From contig NZ_CP071463.1 of assembly GCF_017352095.1 (NCBI RefSeq), positions 3,410,001-3,474,000 on the forward strand: a DNA stretch of 64,000 nucleotides, written 5' to 3'. Shown piece by piece: positions 1,612-61,727 of the stretch (its first letter is position 1; each line of letters begins with the position of its first letter). Both the position numbers and the translations under genes were made by a program. The DNA comes from Natrinema longum. GTDB taxonomy: Archaea; Halobacteriota; Halobacteria; Halobacteriales; Natrialbaceae. The notes under the pieces are model-generated. The model had not been told where the DNA came from, ran no database searches, and worked only from the letters and a program-made list of their open reading frames with translations.

Positions 1612-2994
1612 TCAGTCGTCAGCGCTGGGCGTCACCACTTTCGGATCGTCGGACTCGTCGGCACGCGGGAAGTTGTCGATCGTCTCCGACCTGAACGCCT
1701 CCTCGTCGAACTCGTACTCGCCGTCGAGGAACTCGAGCAGCGTGTGCGTATCCCGCATCGCGTTTTTGAGACACGTCGAGGCACCCGGCGACGGCGTGAT
1801 GTTGAAGATGACGTCGTCGCCGACGATCTTGGCCTCGCCCATGTCCAGGGACTTGTTCTTGGTGTCGACGATCTGTGGTCGGACGCCGCCGTAGCCTTTC
1901 GCGCGTTCGATGTCCTCGAGTTCGGCGCTCGGGACGACCTTCTGGACGTGGGGCAGGAACTGTTTCCGGCCGACCTCGGGGAGGTCGTAGACGAGGTTGC
2001 GGAGCACGTACGGCAGGAGGATCCGGTCCGAGAGGATGTTGGCGTAGCTCAAAAACGCCGCCGCGTTCAGTCCGAACACGTCGAGGAAGTCCTCGACAGT
2101 GGAGATGCGACCCCGCTCGAGCGTCGGAACGAGTTTCGCGGTCGGTCCGAACCGCGTAATACTGCCGTCGTGGACGTCCGCGTCGCCGTGGACCGCGGCG
2201 AAAGGCAGTTTCTTCATCTGGAGCGTGTAGACCTTGCCGTTCAGGAAATCGTCCGCGAGGAAGAAGCTCCCCGCGATGGGGAGCAGGACCTTGTCCTGAC
2301 CGTAGCCGAGTTCCTTGGCCATCTGGAGGCTGTGGGAGCCGGCGGCGACGACGGTGGCGTCGCAGTCGAAGCGTCCAGCGTCCGTTTCGATCGTGTAGCC
2401 ATCGAGCGTCGGCGTGATGTCCGTGACTTCCGTCCCGGTGAAGACGTCGACGGCCGCCTCTGCTTCCGCCTCCTCGACGAACGACTTCGTCGTCTCGCCG
2501 TAGTCGACGACGTAGCCGTCGGGCGTCTGCAACGCGAGCATATCCTTGGAGGGGTCGCGCCCCTCGACGACCTTGGGTTCGATCTCGCCGATCTCCTCGC
2601 GGTCGATCGGGCGGAGTTTCGGGTAGAGGTCGCCAAAGCCCTCGTCCTCGTAGCGTTGCTCGAGTTTGTCGACCTCTTCCTCGCCGACGCCCAGCACCAT
2701 CTTGCTGCGCTTGGCGTGCATCTCCCGGTCGGGATCGTAGTTCTCCAGGTATCCCGCGAGGAGTTCCGCGCCCTCTTTGACCTCTTCGGCTTTCTCGAGC
2801 GTGTAGTTGGTCTCGATGTCCCCGAAGTGGAGGGTCTGGGAGTTGTTCGTGTGGTGAGAGTTGATCGCTGCGATCTCGGATTCCTTCTCGATCAGCGCGA
2901 TCGAGTCGATATCAGTGAACTTCGCGGTCGTGTACAACAGGGACGCGCCACTGATACCGCCGCCGACGATTACCAAGTCGTATTTACCAGACAT
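1612..2994 (-). CDS. mqo: Malate:quinone oxidoreductase (FAD-dependent)
   Basis: Membrane-associated flavoprotein that oxidises malate to oxaloacetate and passes electrons to the quinone pool. The 460-residue protein opens with the dinucleotide-binding fold VIVGGGISGASLL (about 7-19), followed by the Mqo-type stretch INSHHTNNSQTLHFGDIET, which is diagnostic. A later segment (LGYGQDKVLLPIAGSFF) matches the substrate-domain region of Mqo. I chose ATG 2994 (MSGKYDLV) rather than the upstream ATG at 3036, because the extra 14 residues look non-conserved and the Rossmann strand begins immediately after MSGKY. It stands alone, with an AT-rich promoter around 3040-3060. Confidence 0.9.
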   Translation of the reverse strand: MSGKYDLVIVGGGISGASLLYTTAKFTDIDSIALIEKESEIAAINSHHTNNSQTLHFGDIETNYTLEKAEEVKEGAELLAGYLENYDPDREMHAKRSKMVLGVGEEEVDKLEQRYEDEGFGDLYPKLRPIDREEIGEIEPKVVEGRDPSKDMLALQTPDGYVVDYGETTKSFVEEAEAEAAVDVFTGTEVTDITPTLDGYTIETDAGRFDCDATVVAAGSHSLQMAKELGYGQDKVLLPIAGSFFLADDFLNGKVYTLQMKKLPFAAVHGDADVHDGSITRFGPTAKLVPTLERGRISTVEDFLDVFGLNAAAFLSYANILSDRILLPYVLRNLVYDLPEVGRKQFLPHVQKVVPSAELEDIERAKGYGGVRPQIVDTKNKSLDMGEAKIVGDDVIFNITPSPGASTCLKNAMRDTHTLLEFLDGEYEFDEEAFRSETIDNFPRADESDDPKVVTPSADD

Positions 2995-3509
2995 TGTTGG
3001 ATCGTGTGGCTCTGTATTGCATACGCTCGACTCCACACTGATAACTCATATTTTTTCGATCGGGCTTTCGTTGATCGTCGACTCCCCCATCGACGACTGT
3101 AGGTTCGGGTATGCGAGCGGTGCCGAAGAATCGCGTTTCAGACGCTGAAATGCCCATATAAGGTAACTCGAGGATCGTTCATGAGCCGCGTTTTTGGCCA
3201 CTGATTACCGCTTTCCTCGCCTGATCGGGCCCGGACGGTGTCGTTCACCCGCAGCAGTATCGACAGTCGACGTACTATCGGGGCTGCCCCGGCGACGGCG
3301 GTACTCGAGACCGATACTGGCCCGTTCGTGAACCGCCAGTGGCGGTCCACGCCTGCACTGGGGAGTCGAATTCGGCGGTCCGATCCCCGCCGGCCCCGCT
3401 GTCGACGGGTGGAACGGTACTCTGTCGCGTCTCGAGGCAGTCAGTCCACTCGAGAGATCTACAGTTGCCGATCGAGAACCGTCTCGCCAAGGAGATTACG
3501 ACGGTCGAT
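2995..3509. other. Intergenic region between mqo and the K+ channel gene
   Basis: About 500 bases with no supported gene; reading frames here are Arg/Ser/Pro-rich, unlike the acidic proteins around them. The part next to mqo (about 3040-3065, atattttttcgatc) is AT-rich and likely carries the mqo promoter on the minus strand. The rest lies downstream of the channel gene. Confidence 0.5.
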
Positions 3510-4349
3510 CTAGCTGCGCGAATCGTGTTCCTGATAGATGACGTGGCCACACGCCTTGCAGTGTGAGGCGTCCGGGTCGTGGTGTGACAGGCCGCAGTTC
3601 GGGCACGTGATGTCGACTTTCTCCCTGTCGGTCCACTCGCGGACGATCTTGCTGGCCTGCCAGGGGATGACGATGATCCCGGCCAGGATCGACGCCACCG
3701 TGACCCACCGTCCCGCAGTCGTCACCGGTACGATATCCCCGAACCCGACGGTCGACAGCGCCACGACGACGTAGTAGAAGGCGTCGCCGAACGTTCGGAC
3801 ATCGGGATTGACAACGTGTTCCACGCTGTAGAACAGGCCCGCGGAGACGAACAGCAGTACCAGCACCGTCAACAGTAGTTTCAGCGCCCGCAACGCGTCG
3901 TCCGAGATCGTCCCGAAGAAAAACTCCGCGTCCTGCGTAAACCGGTAGAATCGAAGCACGCGAACGACCCGGACCGAACGGAGAAAACCGATGTTGGCGA
4001 CCGTCGCGACTCCCGGCAGGACCACTACGAGGAGCGTCGGGAGGATCGCAAGCAAGTCGACCACGGCGTAGGGGTTTCGGACCTCCTCGAGGCGATCCCT
4101 GGCACCGTACAGTCGGAGCACGTACTCCACCAGAAACACGGCGGCGATACCGACCTCGAGCCGCCAGAGGACGACCTGTAGGCCGGCGGGAAGCGGATAC
4201 GTCTCCGCGACGAAGACGACGACGAACACGAGGTTCAACGCCAACAGGACGATGTCGATCGCCTTCCCGAGCGGGGTCCGGTGATCCAACAGATAATAGC
4301 GGACGAGGTCGCGCCAGTCGTGGCCCGTGGGCGACGGATCAGTGGACAT
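3510..4349 (-). CDS. Six-helix voltage-gated-type potassium channel with C-terminal zinc ribbon
   Basis: Ion channel subunit, expected to be tetrameric in the cytoplasmic membrane. Residues 31-50, 60-80, 94-115 and 118-137 form S1-S4. S4 carries regularly spaced arginines (R124, R127, R130, R133, R136), as in KvAP-like voltage sensors. S5 is about 155-175, and the pore loop holds the K+ selectivity filter TVGFGD at 200-205, followed by S6. A soluble tail after residue 245 contains a CPNC...CKAC zinc ribbon (C249, C252, C264, C267), which classical Kv channels lack. The 279-residue length is complete. The gating stimulus is unknown. High confidence for a K+ channel, moderate for voltage gating. 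Confidence 0.88.
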   Translation of the reverse strand: MSTDPSPTGHDWRDLVRYYLLDHRTPLGKAIDIVLLALNLVFVVVFVAETYPLPAGLQVVLWRLEVGIAAVFLVEYVLRLYGARDRLEEVRNPYAVVDLLAILPTLLVVVLPGVATVANIGFLRSVRVVRVLRFYRFTQDAEFFFGTISDDALRALKLLLTVLVLLFVSAGLFYSVEHVVNPDVRTFGDAFYYVVVALSTVGFGDIVPVTTAGRWVTVASILAGIIVIPWQASKIVREWTDREKVDITCPNCGLSHHDPDASHCKACGHVIYQEHDSRS

Positions 4350-56845: not shown

Positions 56846-57745
56846 TCAGGCCTCGAGTATCTCGTCGTCGTCGCTATCGGGGACGACGAGCGACCCGTCG
56901 AGGACGGTCACGCCGCGGCCGCCGACCTGTACCGCTCCGTCGAGACGAACCCGAACCTGGCCCGGCCGGTCGACGTAGTGGCCCTGCTCGAGTCGAAGCT
57001 CCGCGGGTAGATCGCCGTCGAAGGCGTCGAAGCGGTCGAGGTACGCGGCGGCGGCTCCACTCGCGGTGCCGGTGACGGGGTCTTCCGGAACCCCGGCTCC
57101 CGGCGCAAACATGCGGCCGTGGGCCGTCGACTCGGCCTCGAGTGCATCGAAGGTGAACAGATAGATCCCAGTCGCATCGAGTTCGTCGGTGAGCGCCTCG
57201 ATCGCAGTCGGGTCGGGCTCGGCCGCGCCGACGTCCGAGAGGTACGTGATCGGGACGATCAGAAACGGGAGCCCGGTCGACGCCACCGCGAGCGGCAGGT
57301 CGGCGCTGGCTCCCTCGAGGGCGGCCCGATCGACGCCCAGCGCGTCGGCGACGCGGTCGTAGCCGACGTCGACCTCGCGGATCGTCGGCTCGTCCTGTGT
57401 CATCCAGACCGTGCCATCGTCCGTGACCTCGATCTCGAGCGTGCCGACGTTCGTCTCGAGGGTCGTCGTCCCGGGCTCGAGCCCCTCGTCGTGGAGGTGT
57501 GCGAACGTCCCGATCGTCGCGTGACCGCAGAGGTCCACCTCCTGCGTGGGCGTGAAGTATCTGATCCCGCGGTCGGCGGTCTCGCTCGAGCGAAGGAAGG
57601 CCGTCTCGCTGACGGCCATCTCGGCGGCGATCGCCTGCATCTGGTCGTCCGAGAGGCCGTCCGCGTCCGGAACGACGCCGGCCGGGTTCCCGGTCAGCGG
57701 TTCGTCGGTGAAGGCATCGACCTGCAAGACCCGAATCGTCTCCAT
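56846..57745 (-). CDS. PhzF-family protein (isomerase/epimerase-like)
   Basis: A 299-residue two-domain hot-dog-like fold of the PhzF/YddE family, which includes isomerases and epimerases; most archaeal members have no known substrate. Signatures: VDAFTDEPLTGNPAGVV (9-25), the catalytic Glu47 in AVSETAFLRSS, and DLCGHATIGTFAHL (about 70-83). The C-terminal half has EDPVTGTASGAAAAYL and RLEQGHYVDRPGQVRVRLDG. Start ATG 57745 (METIRVLQVD); the larger frame upstream is unsupported. A 3' fragment of a related gene lies at 58665-58719, part of a rearrangement scar. Confidence 0.87.
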   Translation of the reverse strand: METIRVLQVDAFTDEPLTGNPAGVVPDADGLSDDQMQAIAAEMAVSETAFLRSSETADRGIRYFTPTQEVDLCGHATIGTFAHLHDEGLEPGTTTLETNVGTLEIEVTDDGTVWMTQDEPTIREVDVGYDRVADALGVDRAALEGASADLPLAVASTGLPFLIVPITYLSDVGAAEPDPTAIEALTDELDATGIYLFTFDALEAESTAHGRMFAPGAGVPEDPVTGTASGAAAAYLDRFDAFDGDLPAELRLEQGHYVDRPGQVRVRLDGAVQVGGRGVTVLDGSLVVPDSDDDEILEA

Positions 57746-58129
57746 ACGACGTCGGTCGGGCGAGGGGCGTATGAATCCTCGGTCGTCGTCACGATACCGG
57801 CGCTCGACCACGCCGGTCGCCGCTACCGACTGCCCTACAGGCCGCCGATCCAAGCGACGAGATCGTCGAGAACGGGTTGGTCGAGGTCGTTCCGCAGTCG
57901 GTATCGGCTGTGGTGTCAACTGGTGAGTATCAGAGACACGCAGGGAAGTGTCGGACGAGTGAACAGACGTGAAAACGAAATACGCAGGAAACGCAAATAT
58001 CGACTCTGCCTCCGGCAATTACGATTATATCGAGGGTGATATCAACGACGATGGTGACAGTATCGGATGTCCTCCTTTCTGTCCAGTATAACGTGGCAAC
58101 TATCTGCACGCCAGCAGTACTGAAATATT
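57746..58129. other. Intergenic region with rearrangement scar
   Basis: Contains the hydrolase 3' stump at 57835-57915 described separately, and AT-rich sequence from about 58010 to 58125 that should hold the promoter of the membrane gene beginning at 58130. Confidence 0.5.
57835..57915 (-). pseudogene. 3' stump of an alpha/beta-hydrolase gene
   Basis: Read on the minus strand in the frame of its stop codon, this gives SRYRLRNDLDQPVLDDLVAW then IGGL and a stop. The last 22 residues align with the C-terminus of the hydrolase at 58720-60057 (YAVRNNVAERVVADLVDWID then DL and a stop), with about ten identities and no gaps. Upstream of the segment the frame hits a stop. It is therefore the tail of a divergent second copy, left behind after a deletion. 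Confidence 0.6.
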
Positions 58130-58636
58130 ATGCAGGGAAGTATTGACCCGGCCTTTGGGAGCAGGCTGGTTAATGCTGCCGTCTCGATCGTGCTCGCATC
58201 GGTTGCCCTCCTCGGACTGTATGTCCGTCAGACGCGAGCCGACACACCGGAAGGTGGCGCTGCAGCCAGCAGTGTCTGGTACGTCATAATCTGTTCCGTG
58301 GTCTATCTTAGTCCGCGATATGTACATGATACGTTTGCCTCCGGTGTCTTCAGGTTCCAGTATTCCCTCTGGGTCTTCATGATCGTCGTTCCGCTAGTGG
58401 CGCTTCAGGCCGGAGTCCCAGTGTACATTTTTGCAACCCGTGGAAACGTGGGCGCGTTAGTCGGGTTGTTCGCTGCGACTACCCTCACGTTTTGGGGACT
58501 ACTGGGAACAGGTGGCGAGTCGGACATCTTAGTTGGGTATCCCTACGCTATGTTTCCGGCCGCCGTCCTCATCATTTCATTTACTACTGGCGTGGATGTC
58601 GCTACCCGCAAAGTAACAAACCGGGTTGGTACGTGA
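58130..58636 (+). CDS. Polytopic membrane protein inside the rearranged locus
   Basis: A 168-residue protein with five hydrophobic helices (about 14-32, 48-60, 74-92, 103-122, 135-152). It is less acidic than core haloarchaeal proteins, and the base composition is a little lower in G+C than its neighbours, suggesting acquisition. It sits between stumps of two genes. No family recognised. Confidence 0.55.
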   Translation: MQGSIDPAFGSRLVNAAVSIVLASVALLGLYVRQTRADTPEGGAAASSVWYVIICSVVYLSPRYVHDTFASGVFRFQYSLWVFMIVVPLVALQAGVPVYIFATRGNVGALVGLFAATTLTFWGLLGTGGESDILVGYPYAMFPAAVLIISFTTGVDVATRKVTNRVGT

Positions 58637-58664
58637 GCCGCCGACCCGCACGCCATCCGCGAGC

Positions 58665-58719
58665 CGCACGCGGGCGAGCGACGTAGTGCCCCTGCTCGAG
58701 TCGTGGCTCCCCGGTCGGA
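58665..58719 (-). pseudogene. 3' stump of a PhzF-like gene
   Basis: On the minus strand this reads EPRLEQGHYVARPRAARGW, matching LRLEQGHYVDRPGQVRVRL of the PhzF gene at 56846-57745. At DNA level cgacgtagtg-ccctgctcgagtcg is shared nearly base for base with 56975-57000. It ends directly at the hydrolase stop codon, so the copy is truncated on both sides. Confidence 0.6.
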
Positions 58720-60057
58720 CTACAGGTCGTCGATCCAGTCCACGAGATCGGCGACGACCCGCTCTGCGACGTTGTTCCGGACAGCGTAGGCGAACTCCAC
58801 CGACTCGCCGTCGCCCGGCATAAAGAGGTGATTGAGGCCGTCGTAGCTCTCGAACGTCGTCTCCGACCTGCCATCGAGTTCGGATCGCCACAGCTCGAGG
58901 TCGTCGGTTACGGTGACCTGAAAGTCGCGCTCGCCCTGGAGCAAGTACAGGGGGGCGTCGACGTCCGCCGCGGCACCCAGGTGGTCGTAGGACTCGAGGC
59001 TGTCCCAGAACGCGCCCGGTTTGCCCAGGAGCGTCTCGTCGGCCTCGTACTCGCCCGACCGAACCCGTTCGATCTCTGTCGACCAAGTTTCCAAGACCTG
59101 CTCGAGGTCGGCCCACCCGTGGTCGCCGACCGACACCTTGTACTCGAGTTGCTCGAGGGTGAGGTCGTGGTAGGGTCGTGCGGGTGCGGCGAGTCCGACG
59201 ACGCCGGCGAGTTCGCCGTCTCGAGCGGCGATTCTGGGGGCTGCCCGGCCGCCGAGGCCGTGGCCGACGACGACGATCCGATCCGAATCGACTCCCTCGG
59301 TCGACCGCAGGCGATCGATCGCGACCAGCGCGTCGTCGACGGTGACGTGATCGAGGGTGTACGTACCGGACTGGACCTCGCATGCGGGCACGCGCTTGTC
59401 GTACCGGAGGGACGCGATTCCCCGGGTCGAGAGCCCCGCGGCGAGATCCGTAAACAGCTGCGTTCCGCCGCGAGCGGTGTCGCCGGTCACTGGTCCGGAG
59501 TCGTGGACCAGGACGACGCCGGGAGCCTCGCCGGCGGTCGCAGGGGTGGTAACGGTCCCCGGCAGGGAACAGTCGTCCGCCGCGAGCGTCACGTCCTCGT
59601 CGGTGACCGCACTCGAATCGACGTAGGACGGGCGTTCGTACTCGTCGGTGATCCCACAATCGAGGAGTCGCGACTCGCTGTCGACGATGACGCGGCAGTC
59701 GTGTTCACTCCGGGCAAACGACAGTCGCAGATCGACCGCGTCGACCTCGTTGCTCGTCGTCACGTCCGTGTCGACGACGTCGTCGAACGCGCCACCGATC
59801 GCAGTATAGGCCATCCAGAGTCGCTCGAGCCTGCCGGGGTCGCCGTAGCGCTCTCGGTTACCCGAGACGAAACGCTCGCTTGCCTGCTCGAATCGATCGG
59901 TCGCGAGTTCCTCGACGAACGCCACCGCCGTTTCGTCGGCAGTCTCCGTCCCGGGGTCCTCGTCCGTCGTGTCAGAGAGGAGACCGGCACAGCCGGCCAC
60001 TGCCGACGCTGTCGCCGTCGATACCGCCGCGAGTACGGTTCGCCGTCGGGGTGCCAT
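58720..60057 (-). CDS. Tat lipoprotein with alpha/beta-hydrolase fold, nucleophile Ser replaced by Gly
   Basis: A 445-residue exported lipoprotein: RR motif (PRRRTVLAAV), lipobox VAGC with Cys23, then a DUF3887-like domain (about 35-130; FVEELATDRFEQASERFVSG) and an alpha/beta-hydrolase domain from about 160 (GVVLVHDSGPVTG, IASLRYDKRVP). The nucleophile elbow reads VVGHGLGGRAAPRIAARDGE: position 267 is Gly (GGC at 59257-59259) where family members have Ser. The acid (LLQGERDFQVT) and His (GLNHLFMPG) are kept. It may be catalytically dead, or use another mechanism. Start ATG 60057 gives a proper signal peptide. Confidence 0.82.
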   Translation of the reverse strand: MAPRRRTVLAAVSTATASAVAGCAGLLSDTTDEDPGTETADETAVAFVEELATDRFEQASERFVSGNRERYGDPGRLERLWMAYTAIGGAFDDVVDTDVTTSNEVDAVDLRLSFARSEHDCRVIVDSESRLLDCGITDEYERPSYVDSSAVTDEDVTLAADDCSLPGTVTTPATAGEAPGVVLVHDSGPVTGDTARGGTQLFTDLAAGLSTRGIASLRYDKRVPACEVQSGTYTLDHVTVDDALVAIDRLRSTEGVDSDRIVVVGHGLGGRAAPRIAARDGELAGVVGLAAPARPYHDLTLEQLEYKVSVGDHGWADLEQVLETWSTEIERVRSGEYEADETLLGKPGAFWDSLESYDHLGAAADVDAPLYLLQGERDFQVTVTDDLELWRSELDGRSETTFESYDGLNHLFMPGDGESVEFAYAVRNNVAERVVADLVDWIDDL

Positions 60058-60224: not shown

Positions 60225-61727
60225 TCAGTCGTCCCCCAGTTCCTCGAGCGGGTCACTGTGATCGTGGTCCGCCATCGGCGGCAACTCGCCCGACCGATGC
60301 GTTCCCACGGGCGGCCGGTTGACCTCCGCAGCGGCCGAGGACTCGAGGTCGGTCCGCGCCTCGCCTTCGATCGCTTGCATCTCGCCGTCCTCGCGGGGCT
60401 GGTCAGACCCCTCCGGGCTCTGACTGCTTCGAGAATCGCGCCGCGATTCTCGAACATCCTGATCGATCCGCATCGAGCAGAATTCGGCCCCGCACATCGA
60501 GCAAAAGCGGGCCTCCTTGTAGTTGTCTCCGGGCAGGGTCTGGTCGTGGAACGACCGGGCGCGGTCGGGGTCGAGCGCGAGGTCGAACTGCTCGCGCCAG
60601 TCGAACTCGTAGCGCGCTTCGGAAAGGGCGTCGTCCCAGTCGCGCGCGCCGGGGCGTTCGTTGCCCACGTCGCCGGCGTGGGCGGCGATCCGGTACGCCG
60701 CGAGGCCGTCGCGGACGTCTTCCTCCTCGGGGAGGCCGAGGTGTTCCTTCGGCGTGACGTAACACAGCATCGCCGCGCCGGCCTGGGCCGCCATCGCCGC
60801 ACCGATGGCGCTCGTGATGTGGTCGTAGCCCGGCGCGATGTCGGTCACCAGCGGCCCGAGCACGTAGAAGGGGGCACCGTCGCAGACCTCCTGCTGGCGT
60901 TCGACGTTCTCGGCGACCTTGTGCATCGGGACGTGGCCCGGCCCTTCGACCATCACCTGAACGCCGTGATCCCAGCCGACCCGCGTGAGTTCCCCCAGCG
61001 TGTCGAGTTCGGCGTACTGGGCCTCGTCGCAGGCATCGGCCAGACAGCCGGGTCGGAGGCTGTCGCCGAGGCTGAACGTGACGTCGTGTTCGGCGAAGAT
61101 CTCACAGATCTCGGGGAAGATCTGATACAGCGGGTTCTGCTCGCCGTTCTCCTCCATCCACTTGGCTATGATCGAACCGCCCCGCGAGACGATGCCGGTC
61201 TTTCGGCCGTCGGTCAGCGGCAGGTGCTCGGCGAGAATGCCCGCGTGGATCGTCATGTAGTCGACGCCCTGTCGGGCCTGTTTCTCGACGATTTCGAGCA
61301 GCAACTCTTTCGTGATCGCCTCGGGACTGCCAGCCTGTTTGACCGCCTCGTACAGCGGCACCGTACCCAGGGGCACCGGTGAGTGTTCGACGTGGGCCTC
61401 CCGGATCTCGTCGAGATCGCTGCCGGTGCCGAGGTCCATCACGGTGTCCGCACCGTAGTGGACCGCAGTGTGGAGCTTTCCGAGTTCCGTCTCGAGGTCG
61501 CTGGTCGTCTCGCTGTTGCCGATGTTGGCGTTGACCTTCGTCGCGAACTCGCGGCCGATGATCATCGCGTCGAGTGCGTCGTGGTGACGGTTGGCCGGGA
61601 TCACGGCCTGTCCCGCCGCGACCTGCTCGCGGACGAACTCCGGCTCGCGGTTCTCTCGCTCGGCGACGCGTTCCATCTCGGGGGTCACCCTCCCATCGCG
61701 GGCGGCTTGCAGCTGCGTATGCGCCAT
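60225..61727 (-). CDS. thiC: Phosphomethylpyrimidine synthase ThiC
   Basis: Radical-SAM-type enzyme converting aminoimidazole ribotide to hydroxymethylpyrimidine phosphate for thiamine. The 500-residue protein has [14 protein letters not shown] (about 64-77), [42 protein letters not shown] and [20 protein letters not shown]. The Fe-S cysteines are C409, C412 and C417 in [14 protein letters not shown] near the C-terminus, followed by an acidic tail of about 75 residues (about 425-500) not found in shorter bacterial forms. No TPP riboswitch was recognised upstream; the promoter is AT-rich (ataataaatct on the plus strand, about 61751-61761). Confidence 0.93.

Follow-up and report, generated by a model that had tools for sequence, protein, structure and literature searches.

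The window, that is the whole 64-kb stretch of DNA analysed here, belongs to a single-contig haloarchaeal genome (G000), and locus positions are given in the coordinates of this stretch. The genome of N. ejinorense JCM 13890 (G010) is of the same species as the window's. From left to right the locus consists of ppsA, phzF, a first gene stump, a short open reading frame, the membrane protein gene MP, a second gene stump, an alpha/beta hydrolase gene and thiC. Genes phzF, the hydrolase gene and thiC lie on the minus strand, while MP is on the plus strand. The features are:

56846–57745, minus strand: intact phzF-like gene (phzF1), 299 aa; Pfam PhzC-PhzF, E 1.1e-68
57786–57834, no strand: spacer separating phzF from stump 1; its type is common to G046 and G048 (another genus) and absent from other Natrinema; spacers of 31 genomes compared
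57835–57900, minus strand: stump 1, the 3′ remnant of a first hydrolase copy (hyd1) with the stop codon and ~21 last codons; found by alignment and from its G010 counterpart
57897–57900, no strand: microhomology of 4 bp, gtcg, marking the point where 1,627 bp were deleted in comparison with G010; global alignment of G000 and G010
57901–58091, plus strand: 3′ remnant of the C355 gene, ~63 last codons with two in-frame TGA (57924 and 57960)
58130–58636, plus strand: intact membrane gene MP, 168 aa with 4–5 hydrophobic segments, gene 2 of the C355-MP cassette
58637–58714, minus strand: stump 2, codons ~249–276 of a second phzF (phzF2), with a small deletion relative to G010
58720–60057, minus strand: intact alpha/beta hydrolase gene (hyd2), 445 aa; Pfam DLH, E 3e-9
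60225–61727, minus strand: thiC, right-hand anchor of the locus by synteny

An earlier note on this DNA had reported the tail of a hydrolase gene beside the intact phzF and the tail of a PhzF-like gene beside the intact hydrolase gene, and aligning the stumps with the intact genes proved both to be real. Stump 1, which begins exactly at the hydrolase stop codon, aligned over 57835–57894 with the hydrolase 3′ end (58720–58779) at a score of 44, while several hundred random segments of the window gave a mean of 22.5 (sd 2.9) and a maximum of 33. For stump 2 the local alignment of 58637–58714 with phzF positions 56918–57006 scored 54, random comparisons giving a mean of 22.9 (sd 3.2) and a maximum of 32, and its BLASTN core covered 36 bp at 89% identity (E 1.3e-6). 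The borders of both stumps had to be shifted slightly: the hydrolase part of stump 1 stops at 57900 and not at 57915, and stump 2 starts directly after the stop codon of MP, at 58637 instead of 58665. In G010 both stumps are longer and clearer: the hydrolase relic covers ~430 bp, and the phzF stump (codons 249–276) shows 75% amino acid identity with E 8e-9. The 40-codon frame at 57969–58091 was rejected as a small gene or peptide, since it is the end of the C355 tail.

Synteny from phzF to thiC was compared in 29 Natrinema genomes. phzF is present in all of them, with ppsA adjoining in 28, and an orthologue of hyd2 sits between phzF and thiC in most. The cassette with MP is absent from 24 genomes. 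In 21 of these a hydrolase gene separates phzF from thiC (preceded in G012 by two extra genes), and the other three (G007, G008 and G009) have none there. Pieces of a second phzF or hydrolase gene were found in none of the 24, save for part of a hydrolase gene matched weakly in G012. The stumps are relics of second copies of both genes flanking an insert that most Natrinema lack, as the earlier note had held. In G012 the extra genes are two unrelated lipoprotein-like frames between phzF and the hydrolase gene (L055, ~2580–3700), so that the phzF-hydrolase spacer took up genes more than once.

MP was found in five Natrinema genomes (G000, G010, G001, G004 and G013). In four of them the whole C355 gene is also present, while the window has MP and the C355 tail only. 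The row in G010 reads phzF, a decayed hydrolase gene (offsets 131–504), a short phzF fragment (codons ~123–149), C355, MP, the phzF stump, the intact hydrolase gene and thiC. In G001, G004 and G013 it reads phzF, hydrolase gene, a phzF fragment (lying between codons 76 and 149), C355 and MP, followed in G004 by thiC. The phzF fragments to the left of C355 in these four genomes indicate that pieces of phzF took part in the assembly of the cassette locus. The membrane gene is indeed inserted, as had been proposed from the window, but the inserted unit is a cassette of two genes, the first of which was mostly deleted later in the window.

This loss can be followed directly. Global alignment of the window with G010 has a single clean gap of 1,627 bp, the edges of which share gtcg, and the junction fuses the tail of hyd1 to the last codons of C355. 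The remnant retains 86% amino acid identity to C355 residues 289–358, interrupted by the two TGA codons. Since C355 is whole in G001, G004, G013 and G046, the loss occurred in the window lineage, where hyd1 lost its remainder and C355 lost ~80% of its length together with the DNA upstream of it, and this later deletion produced the tidy pattern of stumps. It is the last event at the locus and a demonstrable one, since G010 preserves the earlier state. An AT-rich stretch upstream of C355, likely to be the C355 promoter region, has no match in the window, and the original promoter of MP was probably lost there too.

Several comparisons point to exchange between lineages as the source of the extra copies. 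In G010 the phzF stump has 84% identity to phzF of its own genome and 83–84% to phzF of several other species, and the hyd1 relic scores similarly against hyd2 and against hydrolases of other species, both comparisons being weakened by decay. The spacer beginning at +40 after phzF in G000 and G010 matches, among the 31 genomes, only G046 and G048. In G048 a truncated C355 (L096, 5837–6109) was also registered, in which ~93 codons from the 5′ part run into other sequence; it and phzF are on different contigs. Between the window species and G046, dS is 0.19–0.21 for MP and C355, but 0.72 and 0.69 for the flanking phzF and thiC. Judging by these values, far below those of the vertically inherited flanks, the C355-MP cassette appears to have been exchanged between genera. 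Its G+C content (49–56% for C355 and MP) also stands apart from the 67–70% of the neighbours.

Outside Natrinema the cassette was found in one genome of another genus, G046, which keeps both ends of a hydrolase gene. In three other members of its genus phzF directly adjoins thiC, and an 87-bp element that is frequent in Natrinema occurs just once in G046, next to MP. Based on these two observations one can assume that Natrinema was probably the donor of the cassette and G046 the recipient. The element itself has inverted-repeat ends (L095, 6640–6726 in G046), gives 11–41 matches per genome in seven Natrinema and 0–3 in five genomes of G046's genus, and adjoins MP in G046 and in G013. As a mover of the cassette it was considered and set aside: what speaks for this role is proximity, and the element is dispersed. 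A separate irregularity concerns thiC, whose dS between the window and G010 (0.36) reaches the level seen between species; for phzF and hyd2 it is only 0.10–0.12. This indicates that a further recombination boundary separates hyd2 from thiC.

Taken together, we consider it rather probable that the ppsA-phzF-hydrolase-thiC interval has recombined repeatedly and that the region is the resulting scar, produced by exchange between lineages and several deletions. A phzF-hydrolase-cassette segment would have been joined to a phzF-hydrolase-thiC segment, the two coming from different haloarchaeal lineages, by means of homologous ends and one illegitimate junction directly after the stop codon of MP. 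The second copies of the hydrolase gene and of phzF would be the product of this joining. Afterwards the redundant phzF would have lost its 5′ three quarters and hyd1 would have decayed; finally, in the window, 1,627 bp went at the 4-bp repeat and MP survived. Evidence for the direction in which the cassette was transferred is indirect, and the shortness and decay of the stumps prevent their placement in a tree.

Tandem duplication of phzF and hydrolase gene within one lineage, later broken by the cassette and eroded, with the 5′ part of phzF2 lost separately, is in our opinion unlikely, although an old duplication followed by several losses retains some probability. The order phzF-hyd1-(insert)-phzF2-hyd2 is the one expected from it, the single copies in cassette-free Natrinema agree with it, and decay could mask close kinship between the copies. 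Against it stands, in the first place, the end of phzF2 that lies beside hyd2. Since phzF and the hydrolase gene share the minus strand, the right-hand hydrolase gene should have the 5′ end of phzF next to it, whereas the part retained there, on the same strand, is 3′ (codons ~249–276). For this reason the single tandem duplication with a replaced middle, by which the earlier note explained the stumps, fits poorly; its observation is confirmed, its interpretation in part supported. Nor does simple insertion into phzF2 account for G010, where codons ~123–149 lie to the left of the cassette and 249–276 to the right, the reverse of what such insertion gives. Moreover, the copies are no nearer to each other than to genes of other species, and the spacer adjoining hyd1 is of foreign type. 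These last two features are better explained by horizontal exchange than by local duplication. The missing 5′ part of phzF2 calls for a separate deletion under every model. As for chance or convergent similarity, which the shortness of both stumps (60–80 bp) and their G+C-rich sequence might suggest, its probability is negligible, since both scores exceed all random controls and the longer, collinear versions of both stumps in G010 already refute it.

The first gene of the cassette, which in G010 has 358 codons, encodes a protein with a Tat signal and lies on the same strand as MP. A profile of 11 homologues, used to search 392 Halobacteria genomes, revealed ~40 clear C355 loci, spread throughout the order. 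Proteins of this family have ~310–420 aa, a twin-arginine signal and a variable C-terminal tail; the twin arginine, QxHxR and HxD are among the residues that never vary. In 21 of 27 family loci a same-strand frame of 107–172 aa with 2–5 hydrophobic segments follows within 170 bp downstream; a crude control gave 10 of 45, a value inflated by the C355 loci that the control set includes. C355 together with a small membrane protein is therefore a recurrent, unnamed gene pair of haloarchaea. Assignment of the window MP to the partner family is borderline (E 0.04 against the family profile, the best of 2,000 shuffled decoys reaching 0.07), while a homologue from G060, 51% identical to MP, matches the same profile with E 3e-6. 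Several copies of the C355 family lie close together at locus L148 of G131, some of them with internal stops.

Neither C355 nor MP has a credible match in Pfam, NCBIfam or PDB; a weak match of MP to SieB (E 0.05) and matches of two C355 members to AftA_C (best E 5e-4) were registered. The LssY C-terminal domain (PF14067), suspected in C355 from a resemblance of motifs, was not supported: its weak matches in G010 and G018 lie elsewhere in these genomes. The viral contigs searched contained no relative, the plasmids searched yielded distant relatives of C355 only and no MP, and an AlphaFold model of C355 built from three close sequences was unusable (pLDDT 28).

The layout of the pair hints at an effector that is exported and a partner in the membrane, an arrangement like that of halocin-like or toxin-immunity systems. 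As a guess, C355 may be an exported antagonist or an enzyme, and MP may act as its partner or confer immunity. That the pair is an undescribed antagonism system moving between genera, of which the window strain, with the immunity gene only, would be an immune non-producer, seems to us quite doubtful, and we put no more trust in the related idea that MP persists there as an orphan gene conferring immunity to relatives in which C355 is still made. The recurrence of the C355-MP pairing across Halobacteria, the intact frame of MP beside a destroyed C355 and the dN/dS of 0.35 for MP between G000 and G010 are in line with such retention. However, G000-specific changes in MP (3 nonsynonymous and 3 synonymous) are too few to support it, no toxin activity is known for C355, and with the DNA upstream of C355 deleted MP may lack transcription.

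In halophilic archaea recombination between species brings in new genes (review PMC4500145), and gain of the cassette and of the spacer would be of this kind, except that homologous sequence is lacking at one junction here and that both neighbours have left partial copies behind as stumps. Halocins C8 and H4 are described as exported precursor proteins in PMC12893001 and in references in it, and C355 is likewise predicted to be an exported-type haloarchaeal protein. For halocin C8 the title of a reference in PMC12893001 reports one gene directing both production and immunity, whereas C355 is followed by a separate small membrane gene; C355 also has no sequence match among the Pfam and NCBIfam models, which may or may not include halocins. 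Polymorphic toxin-immunity pairs (PMC3482391) also have a gene for a secreted protein followed closely by a small partner gene, are horizontally mobile and leave relics. C355, in contrast, has no known toxin or export-adaptor domain and its core is conserved rather than swapped, so that the similarity is one of layout alone.

The recombination scar is thus an ordinary one, of a generally known kind, but unusually readable. Its wider value is as a pointer to a recurrent and unnamed pair of a Tat-signal protein and a small membrane protein, which, should its role in antagonism be demonstrated, would enlarge the short list of such systems known in archaea.
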